Shown here in pieces: positions 4,565-61,140 of a DNA stretch of 64,000 bases. Each line of letters opens with the position of its first letter. Within the stretch, counting starts at the first letter, position 1. A program made the position numbers and the translations under genes. Source of the stretch: Norana najaformis (lineage: Eukaryota > Annelida > Clitellata > Crassiclitellata > Hormogastridae); NCBI GenBank assembly GCA_964023275.1, contig OZ029915.1:13832712-13896711 (forward strand), written 5' to 3'. Below the pieces are notes generated by a model. The model was not told where the DNA came from. It made no database searches and saw nothing but the letters and a program-made list of their open reading frames with translations.

Positions 4565-7075
4565 ACAGTGGAAATAGGATGATACTTACATTTATCAGGA
4601 GTTTCACTGTGGAATGTTGTGCTGTAAATGTGTTTAAAGCTTTTAAAGATGTACAGTAGAAATATAACTCTGTTGCAGAATTTTAAATGTGACTGAATCT
4701 TGCATTGCTTGCTTTTTTAGTTGAAACATAAGGAGTTCATATGTTCAAAACTTCATTTATGAATATGCAGTAATTGTAATTTTTAATTTGTATAGCACCT
4801 CTTCAAGCTAAACTCACCAGAAGCGCTCTGTGCTAATGATGTTAAATGTCTTTAAGAACAGAACACTCATCCATTTGTAAACATTGCTGAGAGAACTAAG
4901 AGTCACCAGTGGCAAGCTCGCACACACACGCGGAGCCCAACCAACAGGTTCCAAGCTAGAGCTGAATGATGACAGCATGTTCACAGTTTCTGAAGCGCAT
5001 AGCATCGAGGATGAGGAAATGATGATGAGTGATGTGATCTGCTGCCGATGGCTCACAGTTCTCGCCATCCATCAGTCCCTTGTAGATGGAAGATGAAGCA
5101 GCGTCCAAATATTCCTCAATCCGACGGATATGCAGTAGGTTTGGGATGATCGATTACTTAAAAATCGGCTTAAAATGTTTGTTACATTATGTTATCTGAT
5201 TTCACCTCAGCCTTGAAAAGAGATCTGTTGAGTCATCTTGCAAATTTATTTGCTTTAAGTAGCTGTATCATTTATTTTATTCCAAACTTGGAGCAGCTCT
5301 TCCCATTTGGTACTCCCTTTTCTACTGGCAGTGTGTATCCACTGCTGAAGTTTAATTCAGGCATTTGATAATTCTCGAAAGCTTCATAGGCAAAGTACAC
5401 ATTAATTTCCAATTATGAATTACTTTAGAATTTCATATGAAAATACAAATTATGTGATTTCAGAATACTAAAATTACACAACTATCAGGAGTATGAAATT
5501 CAAACAGGAAATGCGTTGTTTTCACCTTTTTATGTTGCATTACACTATCTGAAACTATGTTTACTTAATTTTCTTCAAGAAGCAGCAGCTGTTTGAACAG
5601 TTTATCTGACAGTTGGTGTCTGTTAGGCCATACAATCATGCCTTCAAAACTAAAGTCTTTCTACTGGTGCAGACGAAGGAAGGGTAGCATTAAATAGTAC
5701 AAATAATTTCCTTACAGTTGGGCAGCTACAAAGCAGTAGTTCCTTTCTGCCATCTTCGAGATACTGCAACATTTGTAATCTGTTTTTGCTTTTGCCAAAT
5801 TTGTGGCCACTGCATACTTTTCACTGCTAAAACCAAAGAATTCATCATCTTCACTTTCACCACCACTTGTAGCCCTATTATTCTGCTTGCTACTGACAGA
5901 TGAATTATTGTTGCAAGGATCGCATTATTTACGTCTGACCTTAATTCGAGAACAGATTGAAAGACATGTTCCGATAATCCATTTTTTTATTGCTGTCATT
6001 TGGTCTCTACTATGTCACCTATTTGTTGGCCTACAGTATGTTGGGCCACCTGAGTGGCATCTGGGTAGATACCAGTTAACAAGTTCTTTAAACTTCCAGT
6101 TATCATCCACTTCACTGGTGAACTGTACATAAGAATCTTAATTATCTAGACTGTTGACCTTATAATGCTGATGGAGCATTAGCTGCACTTACTGCTGTTT
6201 AATTAACTTGAGTTTTCGATCAGTTTTTGGGGAAAACTTTGGATTGTTCAGTGCAAGACAATACTTCTCTTCACTGTATTGATTTGACTACAGAAATATT
6301 TCTGTGCAGAAAAATAAAGTAAGCTCTAATTTGTTCATTTTAGATATCAGCAGTGTTTTCCTATTCTGTTTATGTCTTGAAAGAGAAAATATATTGAAGA
6401 CAACCAATTCGTTTTCCTTTTAAATCGAATGGTTTTGCGCAGATTGGATAGCCTGGTGAAACCATTTGCTCTTGCCATGCCAATTTCTCAAAGCATATTT
6501 CCAATAAGCTAGAAGGCACATTTTAAAACTGGGCATCCATGCATAACAAAGAGCTTGAACTTATCAACATTGGATGAAATTGCAAAGGATGTGGCAAAGA
6601 TGCTGCTTAGCACAATTAAGTATTTCAGAAAGCTTGAACAGTTCTTCGCAGCTTATAAAATCTAACAGTTTTGTAGTTACAAATTGCAGTTACTTATGTA
6701 TAGGATTACCATTGTTTCAATTTATATAACTGATGTGGACTGTTTGATTTATCTTGTAGTGGTATTCACAACTGTTTGCTGGAGACCACAGACCTGAGCA
6801 TGTATACTGTGAATAATTTGGGAAGGTGCAGATGTGACAGAGGCTTAGTGTGGTTATGTGCCTATCACTTAGCAAATTATCCCCAAATAGTTTCTTTCTA
6901 TAGAAACCAACTTGGCCGTTTTAATTGTTTTTGAAAACCAAACTTAATTTTATGTAACACCATTATAATCTTTACTCATGTAATATTGCCCTTGTGTGAA
7001 ATACACTTTGATTCTATTTCAGCAGTCCTTTAAAATGTATCTGTTGGACACCTTAATTTTCTGGTAGGATAGTAC
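4565..7075. other. 3' UTR of the CTTNBP2-like gene and intergenic DNA
   Basis: The transcript must end in this stretch, but no polyadenylation signal is obvious close to the stop; an AATAAA lies near 6311. A dispersed repeat (copy D1) occupies about 4790-5150. From 5160 to 7075 I recognise nothing: the ORFs there are short, unconserved in appearance and AT-rich. Confidence 0.5.
4790..5150 (-). repeat. Dispersed repeat D, copy 1
   Basis: The stretch begins with the reverse complement of an L2-type LINE/SINE tail (tatagcacctcttcaagct) and continues through aatgatgttaaatgt, gagtcaccagtgg and ggagcccaacc. The same blocks recur in the same order near 32255-32920 and 60825-61140. The L2-type end implies a minus-oriented SINE or truncated LINE of about 350 bp. 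No coding is seen. It probably lies in the 3' UTR of the CTTNBP2-like gene. Confidence 0.65.
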
Positions 7076-7079
7076 AGTT

Positions 7080-7545
7080 TCTAATGCGCCAGTGTCTAAT
7101 GCACAAGGCATCAACCGATGGTGCACCAAAGCTAAGCCGCAATCAGGTCAGTATCCAGAAGGTCAGCCCACAAGACAGAGGGGCAGCCAATTTAAAGGTA
7201 AGTTTTAAGTTGAGAACGAAATTGCAAAAGCGACTGAGCAGAACGAACAGACACAGGGAGGGAATTCCAAAATTTAGGTCCAGCAACTGAAAAAGCCTGT
7301 TTACCCAGAACAGTTCTAGTTCAAGGTATGACCAGAGAAAGACAATCAGATGACCTTGCAGAATAATGGTAAGTCTTGGGAATAAGGACTGATTTTAGGT
7401 ATTGTGGTTGGCCATAGTTCAGTGTTTTATAAACCAATTCGAAACAAATTCTTTCCTGAACAGGAAGCCGATGTAGAGATTTAAACACTGGGGTAATATG
7501 GTCATATTTTGAAGTATTTGTTATTGTTCTAGCCAAGGAGTTCTG
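7080..7545 (-). mobile_element. L2-like LINE, 3' fragment
   Basis: The minus strand encodes the C-terminal end of an L2/CR1-type reverse transcriptase ORF: KYDHITPVFKSLHRLPVQER, then RTVLGKQAFSVAGPKFWNSL, the usual LHWLPV...RxFSxAAPxLWNSLP order. The left end carries the tail cognate (ttgtgcattagacactggcgc on the minus strand). It is 5'-truncated with at least one stop. Confidence 0.85.
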
Positions 7546-9397: not shown

Positions 9398-12300
9398 ATG
9401 GCTTCAGCTGAAATTAGCAAATCAAGTTCGTCGTCAGAAGAAAGATTAGCGAAAGAAATAGAGCGACTGAAGACCAAATACGGAGACGAATGTCGAGTTA
9501 TCGAAAAGATCGGCGACTTCGTCTGTATCGTGCAAGTCACGTTTAGAGAATTCGACATTACAATAAAGTTCCAGGTTTCAGGTTTGTAACTATTAGATGT
9601 AGGGTGCAGTTTGTTGGGAAATGGGGAACTTCGCCACCACGGATGGCACCCTGCTTAGATGCGCTCGTGATCAGCATTAGTGAGCAAGGACATAAAGCGG
9701 CCTTTGCGACAAGTAGCCTAGGTGTAGAAATTCAGTATAGTGTAATAAAAAAAAAACATAATACCGAACAGTTTGGCTGAAACAAATTTTTTATGTAGTA
9801 ATTTTAGACAAGTTAATGCTTATGCTATGTGCTAGCACGGTCCGATTACGCGGATCTCAAATGGTTATTCACTATCCAACTGCCTATCTACTCGGTCTTG
9901 GTCATGCCTCTCTATGTCGGCCTCCAGTCTTCTTTCTCAAAGTATGCAACCACTCCTCCATCTACGCGGCACCGGTTCTTTAGAACAAACGCCCGACAGA
10001 CTTGCCAGTTGGCTTATCCCCTTTCTCGCTCGTCAGTATGCGCACTTTTCTGCTCGTCCTCTCTCCCGCAGCTGGCAATCAAGAAAACCGAACTTCTCAA
10101 GCCGAACTCCTTTGCTGTTTCTGCTTATGCACCATCTCAGTGCCACAACACCAACAATTTCCACCATAGCACCATGCCGCCCCCCCCCCGGGCTTGACAA
10201 CGGGCTTGGGTCAATTACATCAAAAATATTCCTATAAAATTAAAATTACTTTTGTATTTAAGCAATTAAATTACAATTACATCTTGTTCAGTCTTGGTCA
10301 GTTAAATTACAATTACATTAGTGTCAATTACAATTACTGTTCAGTTACACCTTAAGTTTGCATTCAGGTATTGCATTACTGCCATCCAGCACTTGTATGT
10401 TTGTTTTGTCAAAGATAAAGAGACAGTCAGCAAAGTGTAATCATTACAGTAAGTAAAATAATATTTAAGGAAGAAAGTAAATATGATAAATTTTAAGGAA
10501 TTAAGTAACAAGACCAATCGTGGGTTAGTTACCAGTAATCGCAAACATTCAATTACAACATGACAATTACAATTACACCATTCCAATTACATGTAATTGA
10601 TAGATTTACAAATCAATTATAATTACAATTACATGATCAATTTGTAATTAATTGCAATTGAATTACAATTACAATTGACCCAAGTCTGCTTGACACCTCC
10701 CAGATTCTGAACTCACCCCAAAACTGACCAGTTAACCTGGCTCTTGCAGACTTGATTTAGTATAGCACTGATGAATTAGCTGGACTCCCGACACAGCTTT
10801 GTGTGACACAGAGATTTTGGAGATCTATATTTACATTACAGCAGAGGTGTACATTGAATTTTGTATTTTGGGTTACCTGCAACCCACGAGAAGAGTCATT
10901 AGCACAGCTATGCTGGCAGAAAATCATGAGACAAAGTGCTCAGGCTCTTTCTTGTAGCTCACAGTTTCTCCAAGGTCTAGAATTTTATTGTCTGGATCTT
11001 ACATGTTCAGCTGTCAAGTTGTTGTGTTGGAGAATGCAATATGTCGGATTTTTTATTGGCTTTGGTGCATCACTGAGCAGTTGATTGGTGCTTGTGAATT
11101 ATTATAGTGGTACTACAGAAGTTGTTAGATTATGTTTGAGAAGATGACTGAAACAAAAAAAAGACAAGAGAAATACCAGTCACTAGAAGCTGGAGATCAT
11201 CTGTCTGTTCCTTACTGAGATTATCTTACTGCCTCTATTTCAAATCAGAAGATGTCTCTTTTAAATACAAGAGCTTGTTCTGATAAACTGATCAGACAAG
11301 TTGAGACAAGTTTGAGCTAATAGAAACTTTAGTTTACGACATTCACTATAAAATCACCATTATTGTCAGTTTGTTGTTCGTTGCAACAAAATGTTGATTA
11401 TATAGAATGTAAACTAATTTAAGTTATTCCTTCTCTGAAGTCCTCTTCTGACTACTTTGGAAGAAATGGACTCTTTCTCTTTTGAAAGAAGAACAGTCCA
11501 ATCAGACAGCTAGAACTGTATTCAGTTGTCGGGACAAGCCTCGTCCGAAAACGGTAGATTCCAAAAATGTAGCATTAGTTTCATGTCCTTCGTGATTAGG
11601 TGAAAATAATAACAATGAGTTAATTAATAAGAACAGTAAATATATTAACAGTAGTTTAAAAACTGTGACAAAATGTACATGTAATAGTATAGGGAACATA
11701 GGGAAATTATTCATCACCTAATTTCAGCAATGGACTGCTATGCGTGTAGATGAGGCTAGAAACTCAATAGAATTGTCTAAAATGTCATGTGTATTGCCCA
11801 GTTGCAGCATGTTACAAACACTGCTGCTATTTTGTTGTAGATGGATATCCCTCAGAACCAGTAACAGTGATTGTTACTAGTCAGAGGAGTTCAGGTGGAT
11901 TCGTTGCTGAGCTCCGCCAGTACCTAGCAGATTCCAACAAAACTGGTCTGATGACAGACTACCTTGAAATAACAACATTCTGGCTAACAGATCATCATAT
12001 ACAGTCAGTTTCTGAATTTCTTGAGCCTAAAATGAACAAATGGAAAGCACAGAAGAACAAAACAATTGCTTACACTGAGGAGGAGTCTAGAAAGAAAGTG
12101 GCTATGAAGACGGCTGAGGATGTCATTAAGCGTGTCCAGTGGGATTCAAACCTAGAGCCAGAGGCATTCACAGTAGGTTATCTTGATCGTTTTGTTGGTT
12201 TGACTGAGCAGAACTTCTCGAAATTTTCCTGGGAAGACTTGGCTTCAGTTGATTATACAGTTCTGGCAATACCTAAGCACAGAATCCAGTATTTTAAGTA

Positions 12301-12493
12301 CAAGGACGTGATAGTATGGGATAAGACAAAGCGATTGGACAATGTCTTTGGATCGACTGGAAGCAATGTCACCATCACAGATGTAATTGCTGATTATGTC
12401 GAAAAGAAAGCAAATTCTCAAGAAAATAATGCAGTCAATTGCCACAAAGAAAACTGTAATGAATGCGATGAATGTAACAGCAGCTGTAAAAAC

Positions 12494-12533
<40 letters not shown>

Positions 12534-13216
12534 GTGTTTGTGTTACGATTGAAAGCAATCAAGATGTGTATGAAGAAGCAAGTGATGAGGAGGGCAAACA
12601 AGATCTACCCTGGCAGAACAAACTCCGACCCAACTATTTCCTGTGCCAACGAATTACATCCTCAGAAGTTCTTGAAAATGTGGAAGCAATGCAGACTCGG
12701 ATCCTAGATTTGGACTCGCGTTATCTTAATGGTTGCATAAATCCTTGTATGCTTCATGTGACACTCTGCACACTTGGCTTGTACCAGCCAGAGCATATTG
12801 CCGAAGTGGCTGAAATTCTTCATCAGAACAGAAATGATCTTGCGGACATGGCTCGTTCTGGAATCAGTGTAAACGTTTCAGGAGTTGGCAACTTCTATCA
12901 GCGTGTCGTTTATGGTAAAGTGAATCACGACGAAAAGTTTATACAATTTGTTGAACACCTTAGAGCACTGATACGAGAGTCGGGAATCAACATTTGTGAT
13001 AATTATGACTTTGTTCCACACATGACAATTTTAAAAGTAATTCGGCCAGTGGCTCGGCAAGTTGGGTCTAAAAAAGTTCCTTCATGGATGTATGAGGATT
13101 TTGCACAGGTGGAATTTGGAAGGCAAGTTATTGATGGTATCTACCTTTGTGCTATGAAAGGTGAAAAAATAGCTGGACAGTTCTATGATTCTCCTGCTCA
13201 CATTAGCTTTATATGA
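9398..13216 (+). CDS. LENG9: LENG9-like protein (RWD + DUF504/MJ1316 + 2H phosphoesterase)
   Basis: Exons are 9398-9581 and 11841-13216 (519 aa). The donor after ttcag and the acceptor ttgttgtag restore a split Asp codon, giving FQVSDGYPSEPVTV. Residues about 15-125 form an RWD domain (YGDEC...DITIKFQ...GYPSEP). Residues about 150-225 are a DUF504/MJ1316 domain (AEDVIKRVQWD, GYLDRF, KHRIQYFKYKDVIVWD). Next come a Cys-rich stretch and a run of 13 Asp encoded by pure GAT repeats (12494-12532). The C-terminal 220 residues are a 2H phosphoesterase of AKAP7 type, with both H-x-T signatures intact (LHVTLCTL and PHMTILKV). Family knowledge suggests recognition or processing of RNA 2',3'-cyclic phosphate ends; the substrate is unknown. 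The reading frame is open upstream to 9194, but the ATG at 9398 fits the RWD start and a good initiation context. Both exons are uninterrupted. Confidence 0.88.
9582..11840 (+). other. Intron of the LENG9-like gene
   Basis: The intron carries a C-rich coding-looking stretch at 9830-10200 that I could not identify, a poly-C run near 10179-10189, a foldback MITE (10200-10687) and, from 10700 to 11840, nothing recognisable. Confidence 0.7.
10200..10687. mobile_element. Non-autonomous foldback/hAT-like MITE
   Basis: The ends are inverted repeats sharing cttgggtcaatt (left) and aattgacccaag (right). The interior is dominated by caattaca/tgtaattg words, so much of the 488 bp can fold back. The flanking 8-mer gcttgaca occurs at 10192-10199 and 10688-10695, as expected for an 8-bp hAT target duplication. 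No coding capacity. Confidence 0.7.
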
Positions 13217-16231: not shown

Positions 16232-19200
16232 TTATATGCACTTGTTAGCAGTGAGGTACTTCTTCGTTAGATTCCGGATGACAGTTGTTGCATCATCAGA
16301 CGTGTTGGGCATGTATTTGACCATCGTAAGCAGGCGATAAAAGTACTTCTTTGCCAGTAAGTGCTTACAGTGAACATCATGTATGAAATCTTTACAATAA
16401 GCCTTAAAAAGAAGCATACATAAAATTTTAAAACCTTGATAATTTACTGTTTGGTATGTGGTGTAGTGATGAACTCAAGTAATGACCAAGAAGGACTGCA
16501 ACAGGTCATTATGTATGTGTGTCCACTCCATGGGGGAGTGCACACACAAGCCAATGCATGGAGCCATACGTACATGCACCCTGCAAGTTCCAAATGTACA
16601 GAGAATCATTTTAATACAAACGACCACTAGTTAAGCTACGACCTTGTAGTATGTTGTACAACAGCAGCGCTCTGGAATGGTTTCTTAAAAAGTGTAACAT
16701 AAATACACTGGCCAACAGAAAAATTTTTTTTTCTTGTTGCCTTCGGTTTTAGACCTGTTCTTGGGGTAATTTTGGGCGCTGATTCAGAAAATGTCATTGG
16801 ATTGAGTGCATCAGGTCTAGTTTCTGAGATATCGTCGATTTTGTAAAGAAAACCCAGTCCACTCTTTAAACGATGTCTTTGGCAAAACTAAAATGTCATA
16901 ATAAGCTTTATTTATGGCTAATTATAATTCTTGCTGATTCATATAATGCCTACATCCTTATAATGTAAAATCAGCATATCTTGCCGCGTGCTGAGATATT
17001 GCTGATTCAACGAAATAACTATTCCGTAGCCTACAGCTTACTCAGCACTAAATTCATGGCCTCGTTTAGAATTTATTTGTGCTTATACAGCGTTTCATGG
17101 TTTCGAACTATGTAAATAGATTATGCTGAAGTCAGCATTTATAGCCTATATAAACCGCCTCCTGAAAGCTAGAGCAGCCGCAGTCGTCTTAGGGCATATT
17201 AAGAGTTGGTCGCAAGAACAATCTGTGAATGTGAGCATTAAATAACTACATGTTCTTACTATTTTTTAGGTTAGTCATTTAATTCCTCAGATGCGAACAT
17301 CCTTAAGGTTATGGCTACTTCCAGACGGAGCTGCATTAACCATCCAGACATATTCTGCTACATTTGTGGGGAATACACACTAAAAGCAAACAGGAAACCG
17401 ATTTCTGAGTTTGTAAAAAGAGCTTATGTAGGTTATTTTGGTGTCAAACTTGGAGATCAAGATAAGCAATGGGCTCCTCATACAGTATGCAAAACTTGTA
17501 TTGAACAATTGCGCCACTGGACAATTGGAAAGAGAAGCTGCCTGAAATTTGGTGTACCGATGGTTTGGAGGGAACAGATAAACCACTTCGACGACTGTTA
17601 CTTTTGTATGGTTAATATCATAGGCATCAATCGAAATAATCGTCGCAAGTTGTCTTACCCTGATATACCTTCAGCCAGGAGACCTGTTCCGCATTCGGAT
17701 ATTGTACCAGTTCCACCTTTTCGCGAACTACCTCAGCTCTCAGACGATGAGACTTGCATGTCCAATATCGGACAAGATGACGAAAGTGAAGAAAGTGGGG
17801 GCAGTGACAGTGATTTCCAATCAACTTCACACAGTGAACGTTTTGACCAAAAAGAGTTGAATGATCTGATCAGGGACTTAAATCTTTCCAAAGAGTCCTC
17901 TGAATTGCTTGCGTCCAGACTAAAGGAAAAGAATGCACTTCAGCCTGGAACGAAAATTACAATTTATAGAAACAGAGAAAAGGATTTGCTGCCATTATTT
18001 ACCGAAGACAACAACCTAGTATTCTGTAATGACATCAGCAACTTATTGAAGAAAATTGGTCTGTCGGATTACAGCCCAGATGAGTGGCGTCTTTTTATCG
18101 ACAGTTCAAAATGTAGTCTGAAATGTGTGCTTTTAAATAACGGCAACAAATTTGGTTCTATTCCAATCGGTCACTCCACCAGGATGAAAGAAGAGTACAA
18201 TGCCATCTCTTTAGTACTGGAAAAGATAAAATACAAAGAACATCAATGGGTAATTTGTGTAGACTTGAAGATGGTAAATTTCCTCCTTGGTCAACAAAGT
18301 GGCTACACAAAGTATCCCTGCTTTTTGTGTCTTTGGGACAGTAGAGCCAAGCATGAACATTGGACAAGAAAAGATTGGCCTTCGAGGAAAGACATGGTGG
18401 TTGGAGCTCAAAATGTAATCAAGGAATCTTTGGTGGCACGAGATAGGATCATACTGCCACCACTACATATAAAGCTAGGCCTGATGAAAGAATTTGTCAG
18501 GGCTTTGAATAAAGAAGGTTCATGCTTCGAATACATAGTACACAAGTTACCAGGAATTACAATGGAAAAATTGAAGGCTGGAATCTTCGATGGTCCACAG
18601 ATCAGGCAACTTATGAATGACCCACTTTTCATACCATCAATGAATGAAATCGAATCTTGTGCCTGGTCTTCCTTTGTTCTTGTAACTAAAAATTTTCTTG
18701 GCAACAAGAAGGCAGACAATTATGCACAACTAGTAGAGGATATGCTTCTTCATTTCAACAAGCTTGGCTGCAACATGAGCATTAAAGTCCATTATCTCCA
18801 CAGTCACTTAGATCGCTTTCCAGAGAATCTTGGTGACTTCAGCGAAGAGCAAGGTGAAAGATTTCACCAAGACATCAAAACAATGGAAAATCGATATCAA
18901 GGAAGATGGGATGCACACATGATGGCAGACTATTGCTGGAATATTATGCGCGATTGTTCCGGCAGATGCCACACTCGGAAATCGTACAAAAGGAGCTTCT
19001 TCGGTGTCGAATGACTTGAAATTTTTATAACAAACTTGTTCTGTTTGGTATCATATAAGTACAGTTTCAGGTACTACCATTTTCTTTTAAGTATTTGTAT
19101 TATTATATTTATTTAGTGTATCACATAATAAATTGAGCACTACATAATTATAGCTATAGCCTTATGTTTTATCTGGAATGGTTTCTTAAAAAGTGTAACA

Positions 19201-22200
19201 TAAATATAGATGATACATACATAAATAAGCACACAGAGAGAACTTAGATAATGTATATTCAGACACTGATATATACATTTGTGTATATATATATATATAT
19301 ATACACACACACAGACATTTACAGACATTAAAAATGGTTCTTGAGATAGATGGATTCTGGCCTTAAAACTTATCAAAGACAATCCTTGTAGGACTACATA
19401 TCCTTAAAACTTTCAAATTTATTTATTTAAAGCACTTTTATGTGTGCGTAAGTCGGTAAATCTTAATCTGATTTATGTGTGCTGGGGCCAAAACTCTGGG
19501 TTAAGATGGAGTCATGCAAATGCCAGAGTAAAATAGTGATTCTTGACAAGTGATTGAAATGAAGATAGTGAGTTGGCAAGTTGGGCCTTTTGTGACTGAC
19601 AATTCCAAATCTGAGGAACACAGCAAATGAAAGCACGTGATCGTACATTTGTTCTAAACCTATGTTCTAGCAACAAGTCAGTCTTAGAAGAACACAACAG
19701 TCTAGGAGGGTCGTGTTTAAGGATATGCTGGAAGGCAGGTATTAGTGGGCTTTAAAGGTCAAGCAGGCAGTCTGAAACTTGCTCCATTCAACAGGGAGCC
19801 AATGAAGCTCATGAAAAGCATTCTAATGCATTTAATGAAGAACACATAACCACAGAAAGAGTTCTGAACCACCTGGAGCTTTTATATATTAAATGAGGAT
19901 ATAGCATATAACACTACATTGGCATGGTCTAAACAAGTATCAACAAGGGCACAATATAACTGTTTTAGCCATGCCATTGTAATCTTAAGAGCGAGATTTC
20001 TACAGCACCTGAAGAAAGCTAAGTCGCTGGAAGTAGCTCATTTACAGGTGCTCAGTCAAAACGGAATTGATAGGCAGGAAGGGTTCAGTTCTAGGTCAAG
20101 ATCCAAGAGGCAGACGGTCAGATGGCTATGGTCGATGGTGTTTGGAATTGGAGCAGCAAGAGAGATAAAGGAAAGAGTGGCAAGATAGATAAGGGAAGAC
20201 AAGACAGATAAGAGGAAGAATGCCTGATGTGATGAAGTGCCCTAAAATGGTAGAAATAAGATATGTGTGAAGTAACAGTGAGCGAGTTATCAATGGTGAC
20301 CCCAAGAGTTTTAATTTTGTCTAACGGGATTTTGGTTCCTCCAAGGTCAGAGGATAAATGTGAAAAGAAAGACTGCATACACTGATGGGTCATAAAAATA
20401 ACTGCCTCTGACTTATTTGGGTTGATACAAGGTCAATTTACACAGAACCCAATATCAACAGAGGACAAGCAGAGTTTAAGTTCAGTTCTAGCTGAGGGAT
20501 CTGTAGCAGAGAGAGCAGTGTAGAATTGAGTATCATCAGGATACTGCTGGGCCATTATAATCGCAATCATAATCCCGAGATTTCTACAGCGCCCAATGAA
20601 ATCCACATCATGGAGACCAGCTTATTCACAGGCGCTCAGTCAAAATAAAATCGATAGGCAAAAGCGTTCGGTTCCAGGTCAAGATCCAGAAGTGAGGCTG
20701 AAAGTCTCTGGAGTAAGATGTTGTGATCGATGGCGTCAAAGGCTGCTGAAATATCAAGGAGGCAGAGGCAAGAGACTTGGTGAGAGATGGCAAAAACAAG
20801 CTTGTTGTAGAGTGAAGTGAATAGGGTTTCAGTTGAGTGGCGTTTAGTAAAACCAGACTGGCATGGATTAAGGAGTGAATCTGAAGCCAGATAGTCATTG
20901 ATCCTTTCAGTTATTTAGGAAATTAAAGACAGGTTTGAAACAGGCCGGTAGTTTGAAAGGATTTCTTTGTCAAGTGATCATTTCTAGAGAAGAGGGGTAA
21001 CTTTGAAAAGAAGGGGGGAATTACCAGTAGAAAAGGAGGGGTTAACTATTTTGGTAATGATTGGAACAAGAACAGTCTTTTGTATTGTATATATACATGC
21101 ATAAATATATATAGGCAGAGAGATGGCAAGAGATAATCCTTTTGAAGTCTTGCTAGATTTTCTGCAAATCAAAATTCTTGGTTTAGTTTATTACAGTTTA
21201 CATTTGATATTAGTCTTATTGAAAAAGTCTAAAATTATTAGTGTAAAGTCAGAGAACGCAAAAGCCAGGAAAAAGCCTTGCTAGCGCTACTTCAACAGAC
21301 AGTCACAGTTTTCTTAAGTACTAGTCTGGATTCTTAAAATGAAGTCTCAGAGTCTGGCTTTCCAATACTGCGCTTCTGTGTACCAAGTTCTAGTAACTTG
21401 CAACAGATCCCGTTGTACAGCTGTGCATTCACCTGAAAAGGCTCAATGCTGTTTTAATCGGGACTGTCGTTTCAATTACCCTACTGTTTATCCTCTACAC
21501 TACCCCACTCAGTTCACTCATTAAAGCATCCTCCGTTGACCATCACCTCTATGCTGATGACACCCAACTATTCATCTCTTTCTCTCCAAATTGTTTCAGT
21601 GAGTCTACAGATCATCTTCTTTGTGTGGTTAAACAAATCTCCTCTTGGATGACATCTAATCTCTTATGCCTAAACCCATCTAAAACTGAATTCATACTTA
21701 TAGGCCTACGTGACCAGCTGAAGAAAATTCCTGACCCCTCTGTCTCCCTCAGCCTGGACTCTGCCTCCACCCACACCTTTAATACTAACTCCTCTGTCAG
21801 TAATTTAGGTGTTATTTTCGACCAGAACCTTACTTTTTCTGATCATATCACCCAACTTTCCCGCTCTTGCTTTATGCATATCCGCGACCTTCGCAGAATC
21901 CGTCCTATGCTTGACTTCAAAACCGCATCTATCATTGCCACATCCATAGTCCATGCAAAACTTGACTACTGCAATTCACTTTTCCTCAATATTGACACAA
22001 CCCAGATAAATCGCCTACAAGCTATCCAGAATGCTCTCGCACGTGCTGTCACCAAAACCCCCAAACACCATCACATCACCCCTGTTCTCAAATCACTGCA
22101 CTGGCTTAAAATACCAGAACGAATAGAGTACAGTCTTATCTCTCACCTACAACACACTTCAATCCTCCCAACCCTCCTATCTTCTTCAATTATTTACTAT

Positions 22201-41404: not shown

Positions 41405-41640
41405 GTAATCGTAATCTCGAGATTTCTACAGCGCTCAACAAAAGCTAAGTCGCGGGAACCAGCTTATTCACAGGCGCTCAGTCAAAACAAAATCGATAGG
41501 CAAAAGGGTCAAGATCCAGGAGTCAGGCACTCAGACAGTCGGACGGCTACGGTGGATGCTGTTTGAAATTGAAGCGAGAAGAGAGATAAGAGGAAGAGGA
41601 AGAATCAGGATAAGATTATCTTCTGGATATAGGCCTAAAC
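41405..41640 (-). mobile_element. L2 tail-only insertion T4
   Basis: Very close to the parent tail: cgtaatctcgagatttctac, gcgctcaacaaaagctaagt, cgcgggaaccagcttattca and aaaatcgataggcaaaaggg. The youngest-looking of the tail-only copies. Confidence 0.85.
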
Positions 41641-41785
41641 CTGAATGCGGCTTAAATTTGATGTGCCTTCGGTTGATGTCTTGTGCATTAGGAACCGGCG
41701 CTCTAGAAGTTTCTAATTATTAATAATAATAATATTTTCCCCGAGGTACATGTATATATGATGATGATGATGATTATTATTATTA

Positions 41786-60824: not shown

Positions 60825-61140
60825 TATGGCACCTTATAAGTAACTCACAAAAGTGCTGCCAACACTAGCCTAAATGATGCTAAATGTTGTTAAGAACAGA
60901 AAGTACATCAGCAAGCAAAATAATGAACAGATAACTAGAAGAGTCACCAGTGGAAGGCTCACGCACACACATGGAGCCCAACCCACAGATTCCTATTGAC
61001 AGCTGAAAGATGACACGATGTTCAGAGTTCCTGGACCAAGTTACATTGATGGAGTACAAAGACGATAGGTGATAGGGTCTGCAGTACATGACAACACCGC
61101 CCCCCAGCAGTCCCTCATTGGTGTTAGATTTCACAGCATC
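60825..61140 (-). repeat. Dispersed repeat D, copy 3
   Basis: atggcaccttataagtaact, aatgatgctaaatgttgtta, gagtcaccagtggaaggctc and atggagcccaacccacagat follow the same order as copy D1 at 4790-5150. Confidence 0.65.

Follow-up and report, generated by a model that had tools for sequence, protein, structure and literature searches.

The window, a stretch of 64,000 nucleotides from the annelid Norana najaformis (contig OZ029915.1, positions 13,832,712–13,896,711), contains an insert of 2466 bp that is flanked by two direct repeats of 35 bp on the + strand. The left repeat copy occupies positions 16671–16705 and the right copy, which is followed by T, positions 19172–19206; direct comparison gave identity at 35 of 35 positions, as an earlier sequence-only reading of this DNA had stated. 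Apart from this pair, the longest direct repeat within the 5-kb stretch examined spans only 24 nt at 75% identity. Within the same stretch, the two ends of the insert do not pair as an inverted repeat, and its right end lacks a visible poly(A), again as read before. The insert (16706–19171, + strand) begins with the terminus CACTGGCCAACA (16706–16717, + strand) and carries an open reading frame (ORF) of 567 codons with an ATG start (17311–19014, + strand), which had likewise been recognized. A chance origin of the 35-bp repeat is excluded, because the repeat abuts this exact terminus of a repeated element.

We searched the genome (608 Mb, 17 contigs) and obtained 1277 first-look candidates, the best 40 of which were scored; this sample is biased toward complete copies. 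All 30 loci that were cut out, the window's own included, align along the full 2466 bp. The other 29 are 99.4–99.6% identical to the window copy, and all of them run on beyond the point where it stops on the right. Complete copies measure 2625 bp, apart from a few with small indels, and possess the termini CACTGGCCAACA and TGTTGGCCAGTG with the inverted ends CACTGG…CCAGTG. By comparison with these copies, the window element comprises positions 1–2466 of 2625 (2467 if a shared T is counted) and lacks the last 158–159 bp, including the right inverted repeat. Its left end is precise: CACTGGCCAACA is a perfect inverse of the right terminus of the family, and the remainder of the left inverted repeat (element positions 29–138, window positions 16734–16843, + strand) matches the right inverted repeat, which is absent from the window copy, in 78 of 112 columns. 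The element had been called intact and free of terminal inverted repeats (TIRs); the former holds for the frame but not for the element, and the latter for the window copy but not for the family.

An exact 3-bp target site duplication (TSD) was found in 40 of 48 two-ended rows, corresponding to 38 of 46 distinct loci (L047 repeats L025, and L050 repeats L002). The TSD is TTA in 19 rows, TAA in 9, and another sequence in 12, and its commonest context is A-TTA-T (ATTA/TTAT, 16 rows). Eight of the 48 rows have no exact 3-bp TSD. The right junctions of L006, L009, L023, L031, L033, and L038 are readable as carrying 1–3 additional A/T bases ahead of the 3-bp duplication that would be expected; these may be donor flank taken along. 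L015 and L024 are likewise without an exact duplication. Truncated copies have longer repeats, so that copies lacking any direct repeat, which had been named beforehand as counterevidence, do not come into play. Genome-wide, we counted 1443 left ends (25-mer, at most 1 mismatch) and 1415 right ends (26-mer, at most 2 mismatches). The mean identity to the majority sequence is 99.72% over 52 distinct copies, 41 of which keep the 567-amino acid frame. The family is young, and a recent insertion in the window, as proposed earlier, is supported.

Chapaev transposons as a whole possess CAC…GTG termini and a transposase with C(2)C, LH, and H(4)H motifs, and Chapaev3 elements duplicate a 3-bp TWA between A and T, with TWA in all elements described there (PMC4079192; this and the other accounts below are cited from excerpts). 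The termini 5′-CAC…GTG-3′ are found in complete copies of the family, and the duplication, whose commonest context places it between A and T, is TWA in 28 of the 40 rows that have a TSD. In the predicted transposase, C337-x2-C340, LH at 385, and H494-x4-H499 correspond to the three motifs, matched by eye to the wording of PMC4079192. Candidate catalytic residues, also assigned by eye, are D264, D318, and an E within 512–516. On the basis of termini, target, and motifs, and not of a tree, the family appears to be a new member of Chapaev3 (CMC). It shares these features with the Chapaev3 elements Merrow, Garfield, and Conan; Garfield_BM measures 2289 bp and encodes a 556-amino acid transposase, compared with 2625 bp and 567 amino acids here (PMC4079192). 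The earlier placement of the insert outside the classical superfamilies does not hold, and a new superfamily without TIRs was rejected: complete copies have TIRs, mostly a normal 3-bp TSD, and the marks of Chapaev3.

Other comparisons of the 567-amino acid protein were less informative. Its cysteine pairs begin at residues 16, 60, and 96, and zf-AD gave a weak match at 16–70 that lies under the Pfam cut-off. No Pfam family scored over the cut-off, a sequence search of the PDB gave no matching chain, and a search of viral contigs found no relatives. The single-sequence AlphaFold model (predicted local distance difference test score of 32.6) is unusable.

The 35 bp flanking the window element are best read as duplicated target next to the precise end, not as element sequence. 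The sequence-only reading had considered both options, and the second fails on the 29 other cut copies, all of which have different flanks. The left repeat copy terminates in AATA, a target also found at two-ended copies (AATA/ATAT in 4 of the 40 two-ended rows having a TSD), and the target at the precise left end, A-ATA-T, is of the usual kind. At the far junction, the 35-bp repeat has 1 bp (T) in common with the element.

Paralogous empty sites also speak for a target duplication. They were sought genome-wide for eight loci, whereas L010, L021, and L044 were compared in a narrower sequence set. Five of the eight loci have paralogous empty sites with a single repeat copy. When the flanks of L004 were joined with one repeat copy, 38 of the best 40 scored matches ran contiguously across the joint, and the other two were L004's own flanks; two more such sites lie within the window (4898–5017, 89%; 60934–61033, 79%). 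The joint search for six other loci, with 40 scored matches, gave contiguous single-copy sites for L051 (C5:2367793, 96%), L059 (C1:1881140, 96%, and three more at 86–89%), L067 (C1:9551346, 89%), and L069 (C3:31844816, 78%, and two weaker ones). Read letter by letter at one site each, these four loci have a single repeat copy.

Truncation of one end recurs in the family. Among the best 40 copies, 4 are right-truncated (the window copy, L004, L010, and L021) and 36 two-ended. A sample on C1 that was not chosen by score comprised 39 exact left ends below 52.2 Mb, the point to which right ends are listed on C1, among 44 listed on C1 and 373 in the genome. Twenty-nine of the 39 pair with exact right ends, one pair spanning only 1884 bp. 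The 10 unpaired left ends were read: four belong to two-ended copies whose other end is mutated or slightly deleted and six to right-truncated copies, which puts the right-truncated share on C1 at 6 of the 39 sampled left ends. A repeat is present in all six, in diverged form at L065.

Left truncation was found as well. The first 10 right ends among the C1 matches listed belong to seven both-ended and three left-truncated copies (L085, L091, and L093). Seven further unpaired right ends comprise two two-ended copies (L106 and L110), two left-truncated copies (L108 and L100), one whose sequence suggests an internal deletion with CAC retained (L104), and two with no element in the first 265 bp (L098 and L102). 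L044 is left-truncated and L051 right-truncated. A larger pairing among the matches listed joined 100 left ends and 95 right ends into 76 pairs; 11 of the 24 unpaired left ends (2 more by left flank only) and 10 of the 19 unpaired right ends were read. The set used for statistics consists of 17 one-ended copies, 11 right-truncated and 6 left-truncated, with L098, L102, and L115/L116 omitted. Both orientations are represented, and either end can be lost. All 17 copies combine one precise end at a usual target with loss of the other end; on recount, the target at the precise end is TTA/TAA in 14 of the 17 and ATA, TAG, or TAT in the rest.

An ungapped direct repeat anchored at the precise end reaches a score of at least 7 in 14 of the 17 one-ended copies, and none of 140 mismatched pairings does so (maximum 6). 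Including shared bases, these repeats are 7, 9, 9, 15, 15, 20, 23, 24, 24, 32, 34, 35, 36, and 42 bp long (median 23.5), and the two repeat copies differ by 6 mismatches in 325 bp over the 14 repeats (∼2%). Where the structure is readable (16 copies), the other flank begins n bases further out, as a duplication, and no target deletion is seen. With paralogs as the outgroup, the polarity of the mismatches gave no direction for which repeat copy was newly made: three changes (one in L051 and two in L069) fall in the left copy and one (in L021) in the right copy.

In all 14 cases, the junction with the truncated end shows microhomology of 1 bp or more. It totals 35 bp when two values are adjusted manually (40 bp as printed), compared with 10.5 ± 3.8 bp for random junctions in the last 360 bp (2000 simulations, maximum 27). 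The hand-set values are 6 for L044 and 3 for L059 (7 and 7 as printed), because BLAST ran through a gap. The breakpoints on the right side lie at positions 2273, 2351, 2448, 2467, 2479, 2481, 2532, 2558, 2567, 2569, and 2601 of 2625 (2532 becomes ∼2529 if a BLAST gap is discounted), and those on the left side at 21, 48, 64, 91, 115, and 132. All 11 right-truncated copies thus stop at differing points that are at most 352 bp from the lost end.

We hold with moderate confidence that one-ended insertion gave rise to the window element, which is a copy, truncated on the right, of a young Chapaev3 DNA transposon. Normal insertion consists of two strand transfers, 3 bp apart. In a one-ended event, the transposase would join one end alone, at its normal target, and the free transposon end would be resected by a few dozen to ∼350 bp. 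The target 3′-OH freed by the single strand transfer would be extended n bases into neighboring target DNA. The extended end could then pair with the shortened transposon end via 1–6 bp and be joined by microhomology-mediated repair, leaving the n extended bases as a long “TSD.” A duplication of this origin would stem from host repair rather than from an unusual stagger of the transposase. We infer the timing and the template of these steps and the action of the transposase on one end as the source of the one-ended copies. The unusual integration route that the sequence-only reading had suspected is supported, and one-ended insertion looks like an occasional event in a young cut-and-paste transposon, with the window copy as one such case. 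A more far-reaching and rather doubtful possibility is that a sizeable share of Chapaev3 insertions is completed by target 3′-OH extension and microhomology capture of the resected transposon end instead of a second strand transfer, as a DNA-only target-primed insertion. If true, this route would produce the anatomy of a long interspersed nuclear element (LINE), with a precise end, a truncated end, and a variable TSD, on a cut-and-paste transposon.

The strongest rival, which we consider unlikely but by no means negligible, is failed excision. Here, later cutting of a normal two-ended insertion would be restricted to one of its ends. The flank exposed by the cut would copy n bp over the insertion point from the uninserted homologue by synthesis-dependent strand annealing before microhomology joins it to the resected transposon end. 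The resulting structure would be the same, usual targets and microhomology included, and the raised mismatch rate between repeat copies would be accounted for as allelic polymorphism; microhomology gap filling has moreover been described for animal TIR elements (PMC8277862). However, failed excision predicts that direct joining without copying is common, which would leave truncated copies without a long repeat. Such copies number 0 of 11 on the right side, where the repeat of L065 is gapped and diverged, and on the left side L100 is not clear. Junction microhomology and target duplication would also be consistent with replication-based template switching (microhomology-mediated break-induced replication (MMBIR) or fork stalling) at a one-ended joint, in which the element is copied before a jump back to the upstream target. 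This is improbable, because aborted copying should truncate anywhere along 2.6 kb, whereas all 11 right breakpoints lie within 352 bp of the end; the searches behind 5 of these 11 favor long matches, which is not so for the six from C1. LINE-made copies usually have long variable TSDs and one truncated end, and the 35 bp might be a true long TSD of a LINE-made mRNA copy or of an already truncated element that was inserted by a cryptic internal end. To either we assign hardly any probability. On its left, the copy begins with CACTGG, a DNA terminus that two-ended copies also have, instead of starting inside an mRNA, and poly(A) is lacking, so that a LINE-mediated retrocopy was rejected. A cryptic internal end was rejected as well, because it would require repeated use of one end, whereas truncation points vary from copy to copy.

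Several observations weigh against one-ended insertion itself. The mismatches between repeat copies exceed the expectation from a divergence of ∼0.28% per element copy, and an allelic template or error-prone synthesis therefore fits at least as well. At L065/L066 (L065, G000:C1:8426223-8426353), the repeat is 75 bp long with 6 mismatches and a 2-nt gap (∼8% diverged), although the element, over the 223 bp read at this locus, is 100% identical to the reference copy; perhaps another template was copied or an older tandem repeat was present. The repeat of L093 is gapped and interrupted by an AT tract in an AT-rich stretch, and L100 lies in a repetitive stretch with no clear repeat. Loss on the left side may at times be deeper, as L098 and L102 suggest. 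Paralogous empty sites of L071 and L073 were not found among the 40 scored matches of the genome-wide joint search, and none was found genome-wide for the window copy, whose flanks matched only their own two halves plus simple-repeat or weak matches. Finally, no intermediate is seen, and extension in cis is indistinguishable from copying of an allelic empty site.

Aberrant one-ended insertion is known from other elements; its Chapaev3 form appears to be new. The Helitron2 elements CRe-1/2/3 of Chlamydomonas keep one end and are truncated at the other, as here, and have variable TSDs of ∼7–19 bp, some of 44–443 bp, mainly on truncated copies (PMC3627910). In contrast to the Chapaev3 family, they are rolling-circle elements whose insertions with an exact 5′ end are without a TSD, and the kept end is the 3′ end, whereas either end can be kept here (PMC3627910). 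In single-ended transposition of piggyBac, a DDE element, one end is joined at the normal target, for which a “lariat” model was proposed; this was a plasmid assay in cultured cells, and the excerpt cited does not describe a long target duplication (PMC3952818). The “one-ended transposition” of Dada likewise joins one end, with a foreign flank at the other, and was likened by its authors to V(D)J recombination. Unlike here, both termini are present, the flanks come from different genes, and the excerpted account contains no local long repeat (PMC3706591). Gap filling in Pack-TIR elements involves microhomology-guided repair joins at animal TIR elements, as here, but its breakpoints lie toward the inside of the element and the termini are kept (PMC8277862). 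The excerpted Chapaev3 account deals with normal insertions and, unlike our data, makes no mention of truncated copies with long repeats (PMC4079192). Among the papers listed in searches of the open-license literature, none deals, judged by title and start of abstract, with truncated Chapaev/CMC copies that have long repeats.

From a long flanking repeat on a copy without TIRs, an annotator would normally infer a LINE or a new superfamily; here, the long repeat would mark a half-completed cut-and-paste insertion. Because the family is young and has ∼1400 ends of each kind, it provides a natural record of DDE transposon insertions going wrong, and the repair route can be tested by its breakpoints, microhomology, and repeat lengths. 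Chapaev transposases and RAG1 have a common spacing of zinc motifs, and one-ended joins may therefore bear on aberrant RAG transposition.

Some further arrangements of the element were noted on C1. End-pattern pairs on G000:C1 that are 1884 bp (twice) and 2322 bp apart are closer than normal; these copies are probably internally deleted and are candidate non-autonomous derivatives. Four end pairs 4.7–5.0 kb apart were considered as dimers and rejected, as 401 bp read in the middle of one of them (L114) are without element sequence. The left ends at C1 4020208 and 4022512 have a common flank beside the element, and the pair looks like a local duplication. The copy L115/L116 (G000:C1:908971-909041 and 911331-911731) lacks the last 12 bp of its right end, and its left end is preceded by 17 bp that match the family's right end in inverse orientation; one terminus appears to have moved to the opposite side.

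Elsewhere in the window, the segments at 4898–5017, 60934–61033, 7079–7188, and 41639–41722 are copies of dispersed repeats that host the transposon at other places in the genome (L004 and L021). A 475-amino acid ORF at 11789–13216 contains MJ1316 and AKAP7 2′5′ RNA ligase-like domains (Pfam) and is likely a host gene.

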